A stretch of DNA of 64,000 nucleotides from Furfurilactobacillus milii. GTDB lineage: Bacteria > Bacillota > Bacilli > Lactobacillales > Lactobacillaceae. The translations under genes and the position numbers were made by a program. This document shows positions 620 through 43,595 of this stretch, piece by piece. The number at the start of each line of letters is the position of its first letter. Within the stretch, counting starts at the first letter, position 1. The stretch spans positions 62,001 to 126,000 of the forward strand of contig NZ_JAIWJF010000008.1 in NCBI RefSeq assembly GCF_021654115.1. Reading direction: 5' to 3'. The notes beneath the pieces are model-generated. The model had not been told where the DNA came from. It ran no database searches and was given only the letters and a program-made list of their open reading frames with translations.

Positions 620-1125
620 AAAGGTAGCGCATTTTTGAATGGCGTCTACGGTTGGGCAACATTGATACGCTCACCGTGGGGCCGGTTCAAGCCGCCTGGA
701 AACCAGCGTCTTTCACCTCGCCGCAAAGCTTCGTGGGGAGCCGAGTCTTTGCGACCATCCGTAACCTAAGTTCGAGCAAACCACTCGAATTAACGTTACC
801 TTCATGGTTTGGTATCAATGTTGCCGCTCTCCAGCTGAAATTGTGGCAAGCTGCCTGTCATGGTCATCTAGCAGTAGCTATCAGAAAATTTAGTCATTTA
901 CCATAACCGTTTACTATAGGAGTGGAGCTGACTGGAAACAGAGTTCCGTGTCGGCAACACTTGCGGCAGGAATTTGGCCGCTTAGTGGTGCGGGATGACT
1001 TATGAGACGTGTACTTCGGCTCATAATCAAGGTAGAAGACTCCGGGCTTCAGGAGGCTGAGACCGATCCCCATGGAACGGCGTTTCGGGTCAGCGTAACG
1101 GCATGAAGGTTGTCTCCAAAAAAAA
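620..1125 (+). ncRNA. Candidate large structured noncoding RNA, class unknown
   Basis: This gene-free stretch holds many nested complementary segments. A 14-bp perfect helix joins GGCAACATTGATAC (655-668) to GTATCAATGTTGCC (812-825). Inside it are 722-728/747-753, 754-758/804-808, 761-765/795-799 and 769-776/784-791. Downstream helices are 832-836/849-853, 860-864/900-904, 927-932/950-955, 958-961 plus 963-967 with 977-981 plus 984-987, 1000-1006/1020-1026 and 1057-1064/1088-1093. Strand is inferred from a GAAA loop closed by CTG/CAG (932-941) and from the upstream terminator facing +. I found no RNase P, tmRNA, SRP or group II intron domain V motifs. Size and ornateness recall the ROOL/GOLLD classes, but I cannot assign it. 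Ends are approximate. Confidence 0.65.
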
Positions 1126-2737: not shown

Positions 2738-2800
2738 TTGACTTATAGACTGGCTATGCCAGCAGGACAGTAAAACGCGGTTTCGCTCAAGCAAATAATA

Positions 2801-2829
2801 TTGTGTTTCACAGCCGTAGTTGGTATAAT
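2801..2829 (+). promoter_or_regulatory. Promoter of argS T-box leader
   Basis: TTGTGT (2801-2806), 17-bp spacer, TATAAT (2824-2829) with an extended TG two bases upstream of the -10. Confidence 0.8.
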
Positions 2830-2835
2830 AGCTTG

Positions 2836-3033
2836 CGTTCACGTTTGAAGAAGTAGTCTGTATTGGTATTGTTAAGCGAGTCGCGTTGGTGGAAGGCGAT
2901 CAAGAGAGCAGACGAAGCGTGTCAAACGGTTAAAGTTAAATATTAAATGAGTGGATTGGGTAATTACCTGATCAAAAAGAGTGGTACCGCGGAAAATCGC
3001 CTCTTACATACACATGTAAGGGACGTTTTTTTG
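2836..3033 (+). ncRNA. T-box riboswitch of argS, specifier CGU
   Basis: Stem I base CGTTTGA/TCAAACG (about 2841-2847 and 2921-2927) encloses a specifier loop and the helix GTCTG/CAGAC. CGT (2918-2920), an arginine codon, sits one base before the 3' base strand and is the likely specifier. The T-box GAGTGGTACCGCGG is at 2979-2992. Its TGGT bulge would pair with a tRNA ending ACCA. A terminator (CTTACAT/ATGTAAG and T run) closes the leader at about 2998-3033. Uncharged tRNA-Arg should favour the antiterminator and argS expression. Confidence 0.9.
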
Positions 3034-3079
3034 TTTTTTAACACGACATTTAGAATTTGAACCATGAAAGGGAGATTTA

Positions 3080-4771
3080 ATGAATAATCGCGAACAAGTT
3101 GCGCAAGCCATCAGTGAAGCGTTAGATGGTCAATTAACAGCTGAGGATATTGTTGTCAAAATTGAACAGCCGAAAACTTCTGACCTTGGTGACCTAGCAT
3201 TTCCAACGTTTGTATTAGCCAAGACACTTCATAAAGCACCTAATTTAATTGCCGCTGATTTGGCAGACAAAATTGACCAAACGGCCTTTGAAAAGGTTCA
3301 AGCGGTTGGCCCTTATGTTAACTTCTTCCTAAAGAAGGGCAGCTTTGCTGCAACTACGTTGGCTGCCATCTTAACTGATAAGGATCAATACGGTGCTCAA
3401 AACCTTGGTAATGGTGGTAATGTGCCCATCGACATGTCGTCACCGAACATTGCTAAACCAATGTCGATGGGCCACTTGCGGTCCACAGTGATTGGTAATG
3501 CGATTGCCAATATTTTATCTAAAACTGGGTATCATCCAATTAAAATCAACCATTTAGGTGACTGGGGCACACAGTTTGGTAAGTTAATGCAAGCTTATAA
3601 AATGTGGGGGACTGAAGCCGAAGTGAAGGCAGATCCCATCAATAAGTTGCTTGAATACTACGTTCGTTTCCATAAAGAAGCAAAAGAACATCCGGAAATG
3701 GACGAAGACGCCCGAGAATGGTTTAAAAAGCTTGAAGATGGTGATGAAGAAGCAACTCGTCTATGGAAGTGGTTCCGTTCAGAATCACTTAAATCCTTTA
3801 TGCGGATTTATGATGAATTAGGCGTGAAGTTTGATTCTTACAATGGTGAAGCTTTCTACAACGACAAGATGGACGAAGTTGTCCAAATTCTTGAAGATAA
3901 GCATCTTTTACATGAAAGTAAGGGTGCGGAAGTTGTTGATCTTGACAAGTACGACTTAAACCCAGCGCTAATTAAAAAATCAGATGGTGCAACACTGTAC
4001 ATCACACGTGATTTGGCTGCTGCTATTTATCGGAAACGTGAATACAAGTTTGTCCAATCTCTTTACGTTGTGGGCGCTGAACAAGTTAACCATTTCAAAC
4101 AATTAAAGGCAGTGTTGACGGAAATGGGCTTCGACTGGGCCGACCAGATTCACCACATTCCGTTTGGTCTCATTACCTTGAATGGTCAAAAATTATCCAC
4201 TCGTTCTGGGCGGGTTGTCTTACTGGAAGACGTATTAAAAGATTCCATTGATTTGGCCATGAAGCAAATCGAAGCAAAGAACCCATCATTAGCTAACAAG
4301 ACTGAGGTCGCTCATGAAGTTGGTGTGGGGGCCGTAATTTTCCACGACTTGAAGAACGAACGGCTGAACAGTTTCGACTTTAATCTTGAAGAAGTGGTTC
4401 GCTTTGAAGGTGATACTGGTCCGTACGTTCAATATGCACGGGCGCGGGCTGAAAGTATGTTACGGAAAGCCAACAAGACGACGTTTGATTTAGATGACAT
4501 TAGCATTGATGATCCAGCGGCTTGGAACACGATCAAGGCGTTGAGTGAGTTTGGTGATGTTATCAAACGGGCAGCTACAGAGTACGAACCATCCGTTGTG
4601 GCAAAATACGCAATCAATTTGGCGCGTGAATTTAACAAGTATTACGCTAATTCGAAAGTCTTGGTTGAAGATGATGGCTTAAATGCCCGTCTAGCACTTG
4701 TTAAGAGTGTCAGCATCGTGTTGAAGGAAAGCTTACGGTTGCTTGGCGTTGAATCACCAGACGAAATGTAG
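3080..4771 (+). CDS. argS: Arginyl-tRNA synthetase
   Basis: A 563-residue class I synthetase charging tRNA-Arg. The N-terminal Add-1 type domain (residues 1-100) recognises the tRNA D-loop. [16 protein letters not shown] contains the HIGH-equivalent HLRS. LSTRSGR stands in for KMSKS, as is common in ArgRS. The C-terminal DALR anticodon-binding domain contains [15 protein letters not shown]. The start has AAAGGGAG upstream. It is preceded by its own T-box leader and followed after 14 bases by argR. Confidence 0.98.
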
Positions 4772-41887: not shown

Positions 41888-42031
41888 GGCATGATGAACC
41901 TTTAATGTAGTCCTGTGAGGCTAACAAGGGAACGGCTGTTGTGACGTTTAGAATAGCGCAATTTGTGCAATTCTAGTACATCTTCACACGTAAACCAGAC
42001 CACTTGCCTTCCGGGTGAGTGGTCTTTTTTA
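41888..42031 (+). ncRNA. PyrR-responsive attenuator leader
   Basis: AGTCCTGTGAGGCT (41909-41922) matches the PyrR-binding loop consensus ARUCCNGNGAGGYU. A hairpin TAGAAT..GCGCA/TGTGC..ATTCTA follows at about 41950-41976. A terminator (AGACCACT/AGTGGTCT and T run) is at 41997-42030. PyrR with UMP should stabilise the anti-antiterminator and shut off the downstream permease. Confidence 0.85.
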
Positions 42032-42094
42032 TTTGGATGATCAAACGTTTAGGCCGGGACGGGTTCGCGTGAAGTGAGGAAGGGAGCGTTTTAA

Positions 42095-43420: not shown

Positions 43421-43595
43421 CTGTTGAGAAAAGCAGAAGCACCCGCTTCTCGCCTTGGTAATTTTGTTGCCGGGCTAAAGATGAGTTGAACCGTACTGTT
43501 TCAGTGCGGACAGCGGGTGGCGATGGCCATCCGCTATTTTTCTGTTTAAATCTCACCATTGTTGATTCGTTTAGAATTTTATGGAGGTGAATACC
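43421..43595 (+). ncRNA. L20-type autoregulatory leader of infC operon
   Basis: A 175-base leader with three hairpins: GAGAA/TTCTC (about 43424-43450), CCGTACTG/CAGTGCGG (about 43490-43508) and a terminator AGCGG.TGGC/GCCA.CCGCT with TTTTT (43512-43542). Position and terminator fit the Firmicutes L20 leader, in which r-protein L20 binding stops transcription before infC. Confidence 0.8.

Follow-up and report, generated by a model that had tools for sequence, protein, structure and literature searches.

Background

Small interspersed structured repeats are a known kind of bacterial sequence, and those nearest to the repeat described here are BOX, RUP and SPRITE, and the MITEs. The BOX, RUP and SPRITE elements of Streptococcus pneumoniae are short, intergenic, foldable and MITE-like, are enriched between convergent genes and follow the genome's strand bias (PMC3049150). 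The present repeat is likewise foldable, intergenic, enriched between convergent genes and strand-biased; it is set apart from these elements, as they are described in print, by its inverted, multi-branched twin units of ~190 nt, by covariation at nearly every pair and by its occurrence in ten genera. MITEs are short and have no ORF, which also holds for the present repeat, and a streptococcal relative of the repeat shares their inverted ends and target duplication (PMC10969869). It departs from MITEs in its target, where an entire hairpin, variable in length, is duplicated, and in that a large conserved fold fills most of the element. REPINs and BIMEs resemble it as inverted pairs of hairpin units present in high copy number between genes; REPs, however, have lengths of tens of bases and require a Y1 (RAYT) transposase, a family that is missing from the present host genome. 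What is new is the fold and the twin layout.

Larger structured sequences also invite comparison. ROOL, GOLLD, OLE (PMC12286853) and raiA are large structured bacterial non-coding sequences, some of them found in lactobacilli, but the present repeat has no covariance match to them and is unlike them in size and layout and in the number of its copies. HEARO and other transposon-linked RNAs are many-copy structured sequences tied to mobility; here, in contrast, there is no Rfam match to HEARO and no linked nuclease gene was recognised. No description of the family was found in Rfam or in the open-access literature searched, and an earlier description elsewhere is possible.

The locus considered here lies in a window of 64,000 nt from Furfurilactobacillus milii. 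It probably belongs to a new family of dispersed repeats of the Lactobacillales, non-autonomous and MITE-like, of which it is one copy. To the bacteria of sourdough and beer, and to related bacteria, the family would add a large structured element that covariation supports and that reaches more than 100 copies per genome.

The locus and its twin units

An earlier note, made from the window alone, had described positions 620 to 1125 as a large, ornate structured RNA in a gene-free stretch. By sequence and ORF list, 635-1105 is indeed without a credible gene, and credible coding is absent between the end of the upstream ORF (557) and the start of a downstream hydrolase (~1239). The ORFs listed inside the stretch are short and are not conserved between copies of the repeat, for which reason protein coding by the units was rejected. 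The terminator mentioned in the note is also present, as a terminator-like hairpin with a T-run at 571-606 on the plus strand; judged by sequence it belongs to the upstream gene, adjoins the repeat from outside and is excluded from it. The folding energy of the stretch is lower than that of its dinucleotide shuffles, with z of -3.4 and -3.5 on the two strands.

The locus consists of two homologous folded units of ~190 nt separated by a spacer. Unit A (645-834) has its multi-branched fold on the minus strand and unit B (917-1105) has the homologous fold on the plus strand, with covariance model scores (model R1, see below) of 68.5 bits (E 3e-18) and 179 bits (E 4e-50), respectively. In unit A the structured strand has its 3′ end on the outer, left side; in unit B it has it on the outer, right side. 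The spacer (835-916) is unconserved in sequence, varies in length among copies and shows no promoter enrichment. In unit A the closing helix is the perfect 14-bp pairing that had been noted earlier, and is exact: 655-668 (GGCAACATTGATAC) is the complement of 812-825 (GTATCAATGTTGCC), the helix being assigned to the minus strand. Its counterpart in unit B pairs 927-939 (5′ arm) with 1082-1094 (3′ arm) on the plus strand.

The repeat nature of the locus and the inverted kinship of A and B are invisible to a reader of a single stretch, and were found by searching the genome. BLAST with positions 600-1140 gave 43 matches in the own genome, the query included, the others at ~70-85% identity. A profile search (E < 0.001) over eight stitched contigs, which make up ~2.0 of the 2.65 Mb of the host genome, found 132 units grouped into 89 clusters. 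Alignment of 23 full copies resolved two conserved blocks, A and B, flanking the unconserved spacer. The A profile also picks up B copies, in reverse orientation, and A and B align over their full length with identical helices; a full copy is thus two homologous units in inverted orientation. Solitary units are also present. By our own count, all close pairs of the host genome (40 of 40, of which 35 are A/B and 5 A/A) are arranged head to head, once units that had been split by deletions, and so appeared as exceptions, are merged.

The interpretation of the locus as a structured element that Rfam does not list stands, while its interpretation as one large RNA gene does not. The Rfam search that the earlier note had called for, with ROOL, GOLLD, OLE and raiA included, placed no family on the stretch at gathering score; a scan of the stretch at a permissive threshold gave matches at chance level only, and a tRNA/tmRNA search gave none. 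A single RNA of ROOL or GOLLD type would suit the length of ~470 nt and the strong fold. Both the repeat structure and the outcome of the strand test already contradict it, since what had been taken for one RNA of ~500 nt is two units with opposite structured strands around an unconserved spacer, dispersed in more than 100 copies, with solitary units among them and with no Rfam match; this reading is scarcely tenable.

Some of the most similar A units of the host genome (G000), at 94-98% identity, are neighbours: C24:38930 and C24:40277, C11:415545 and C11:419978, and C21:29814 and C21:31636. Such near-neighbour similarity suggests that local duplication or gene conversion may have acted.

Fold and structured strand

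RNAalifold applied to 47 B units gave a fold of 58 pairs, with compensatory double changes inside the genus in 46 of the 58, and the covariance model R1 was built from this fold, its E-values coming from a short calibration. The architecture consists of the closing helix P1 (~13 bp, nearly free in sequence), P2 and a hairpin P3, beyond which a short GGAC/GUCC helix encloses two further hairpins, P4 and P5. In the alignments examined, P4 and P5 each carry a near-invariant AGAC/GGCU motif that includes an A-G mismatch, and the same motif is found with small departures in streptococcal copies. All four Watson-Crick pairs occur at many covarying columns: in P1 of unit B all 13 pairs show compensatory changes among copies, and in P1 of unit A several column pairs show three or four Watson-Crick pair types. 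Elaborate folding, as the earlier note had proposed, is borne out by compensatory changes among copies.

The fold also holds beyond the host genus. In an alignment of 42 distinct units taken from genera other than the host's, 92.4% of cells are paired and 56 of the 58 pairs show changes on both sides. Covariation scores 0.708 there, compared with 0.199 after shuffling and at most 0.122 with the partner slid; the alignment was fitted to R1 and so favours the model. Taken together, the covariation strongly backs the predicted fold.

Wobble pairs are concentrated on a single strand of each unit (132 vs 58 for A, 136 vs 24 for B). This strand is the minus strand for A and the plus strand for B in the window, so that the two structured strands point outwards from the spacer. 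As G-T wobble is tolerated in DNA and G-U in RNA, the wobble fixes the strand and not the type of molecule.

Orientation and gene context

With the leading strand inferred from local GC skew, 66 clusters lie along it and 18 against it (p 1.3e-7). This orientation with replication holds in every flanking-gene context, reaching 9:1 where both genes oppose replication. The copies are about twofold enriched between convergent genes, which flank 27-28 of 84 copies (about a third) compared to 96 of 633 comparable gaps (15%). In most cases the structured strand of unit A runs antisense to the neighbouring upstream gene, and a sigma-70-type promoter signal is not enriched upstream of A or B. A terminator adjoins unit A in the window copy and in several copies from other genera, which falls short of a rule for the Lactobacillaceae. 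Single loci had hinted at a wider association with terminators within Furfurilactobacillus; it was rejected, as strict terminator detection beside unit A in the host genome found no enrichment (5 of 84 against 44 of 336).

Taxonomic range

The host genus is Furfurilactobacillus, as matches named F. milii and F. rossiae show, and the core pattern was matched also in one Secundilactobacillus and one Levilactobacillus. Model R1 has matches in 68 of 301 Lactobacillaceae genomes, belonging to 10 of 40 genera, and in one further Lactobacillales genome from a different family; in a draw of 300 genomes from the class only the host's own genome matches. The R1 search found no unit in G004, a genome of the host's own genus. 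In other genera, too, the pairs of units diverge, except for one tandem pair, and at the homologue loci no Rfam family covers the units. R1 also matches 5 of 118 genomes of the genus of G433, which is inferred from gene content to be Streptococcus.

The core pattern is absent from the viral contigs, and the phages searched have no match. Among the plasmids searched, the only match is one captured chromosomal block. On plasmids of beer isolates (L066:4133-6206, a Pediococcus damnosus plasmid, and also L067 and L068) this block contains an SMR efflux gene, a MerR regulator, unit A, a carboxymuconolactone decarboxylase and a cupin, and it corresponds to the chromosomal locus C26:105364 of the host. 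It is evidently a gene capture in which one repeat was carried along.

A streptococcal relative with one unit

The streptococcal genome G838 has ~20 copies of an element of ~293 bp, which are 86-100% identical and mostly at least 95%. It contains a single unit, positioned off centre, and its ends are the imperfect inverted repeats TTAGACTGAAGAAAAAGT and TCAGGTTGTAGACAAAGT. When the flanks were read by eye, 17 of 18 full-length copies proved to be flanked on both sides by one and the same hairpin, in direct repeat, the exception being L316. Most of the duplicated hairpins resemble intrinsic terminators, and the duplicated target, also measured by eye, varies in length from ~13 to 31 bp. The orientation of the element relative to the terminator is variable (4 vs 2 among one-sided terminators, by eye). 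Further copies in the genus occupy the purL-purF and grpE-dnaK intervals. At the level of sequence, recent spread of the streptococcal form into terminator-like hairpins is evident, and points to a target rule in which the element would insert into such a hairpin and the hairpin is duplicated. The streptococcal and Lactobacillaceae elements have the unit in common; their ends are not visibly so, and a mechanism shared by both is thus no more than a possibility.

A second short non-coding streptococcal element, which has no structured unit, occurs at L330:4190-4400 and L331:3980-4180. Its end motif, TCAGATTGAAGAAAAAGT, is near-identical to that of the ~293-bp element, and duplicated hairpins flank it too. 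A search by end motif for an autonomous copy, in one streptococcal genome, gave only more short non-coding elements.

Age and constraint in Furfurilactobacillus

At most loci compared between F. milii and F. rossiae an element of the same size is present, and losses of single units are seen between relatives at some loci. One clear empty site was found: the element at C24:97181 is missing from two relatives, and at the base of a terminator stem it is flanked by an 8-bp repeat (AAAGTAGG/AAAGCAGG). For the old Furfurilactobacillus copies as a set, leftover flanking duplication was not detected.

Between orthologous loci (67 units, 116 comparisons), identity is 95.8% in paired columns, 93.4% in unpaired columns and 89.5-91.9% in the flanks. 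Pairing is kept in 38 of 42 double changes at the same locus. Of the distinct compensatory events, 26 of 28 are short-range and 3 of 28 isolated, and gene conversion or hairpin-templated change could therefore explain many of them. Among distinct events, changes from Watson-Crick to G-U exceed those from Watson-Crick to A-C by 78:44 (p 0.003), an excess that is significant for B and insignificant for A alone. In view of the range of the events and of these G-U and A-C counts, same-locus compensation falls short of proof of selection, and selection in place on the fixed copies may be regarded as weakly supported. Most copies in the host now look old, fixed and weakly constrained. The host species offer many orthologous loci at which the role of the fold can be asked about.

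Mobile element, host RNA or chromosomal architecture

The non-autonomous, MITE-like repeat that we favour is short and its copies have no conserved ORF. Terminal inverted repeats are found in the streptococcal element, while in Furfurilactobacillus inversion is seen for the units themselves only; target site duplication is found in the streptococcal copies and at the one Furfurilactobacillus site. Such an element would be moved by an enzyme supplied in trans, and that enzyme or a partner would recognise the fold, possibly as single-stranded DNA at replication forks, an idea that comes from the 3′ end of the Lactobacillaceae structured strand lying at the outer end of the element. It is possible, if somewhat doubtful, that the units are a new type of transposon end, in which the ~190-nt fold would be recognised as single-stranded DNA with its 3′ end as the terminus, and the enzyme would cut at hairpins, insert the element into terminators and duplicate the hairpin. 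Neither the Y1 transposase (PF01797) nor the reverse transcriptase (PF00078) family has a match in the host genome or in several other genomes that bear the element, which makes a REPIN/RAYT or reverse-transcription route unlikely to be active in the host now, and RAYT and reverse transcriptase were rejected as movers there. A derivative of a retroelement or group II intron was likewise rejected, given the absence of PF00078 and of any match of the stretch to the group II intron models of Rfam. Counting against a mobile repeat, the mover enzyme was not found in the families searched, the old Furfurilactobacillus copies have no detectable flanking duplication and terminators are not enriched beside unit A. 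The conservation of the whole multi-branched fold also exceeds the usual need of a transposon end.

The units could instead be functional RNAs of the host, either divergent small RNA genes or cis-acting 3′-UTR elements that are read through and serve stability or regulation. The fold is RNA-like, unpaired letters are conserved, the G-U wobble is confined largely to one strand, related species have the units in the same place and more alike than their flanks, and G-U is preferred over A-C in their changes. Yet the spacer is not enriched in promoters, the structured strand of unit A is mostly antisense to its upstream neighbour, the compensatory events have the short range of gene conversion and one genome of the genus has no units at all, which leaves a host RNA function unlikely. 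Still less likely is a role in chromosome architecture of the BIME/ERIC kind, where inverted units would extrude or fold when single-stranded and bind a nucleoid, topoisomerase or repair protein. It would agree with more than 100 intergenic copies in an inverted twin layout, and binding at folded single strands would account for an orientation with replication that is independent of gene direction; the repeat is, however, entirely lacking in one genome of the genus and in most of the family, and repeats of the BIME/ERIC type are not known to conserve a complex fold while its sequence varies freely.

Other regulatory elements in the window

Elsewhere in the window, positions 2760-3060 resemble a T-box leader, with an antiterminator motif (GAGTGGTACCGCGG) at ~2980, and precede an arginyl-tRNA synthetase-like ORF at 3080; the match is below the Rfam gathering score. 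Rfam also identifies an ordinary L20 leader at 43425-43548 and a PyrR binding site at 41895-42032.
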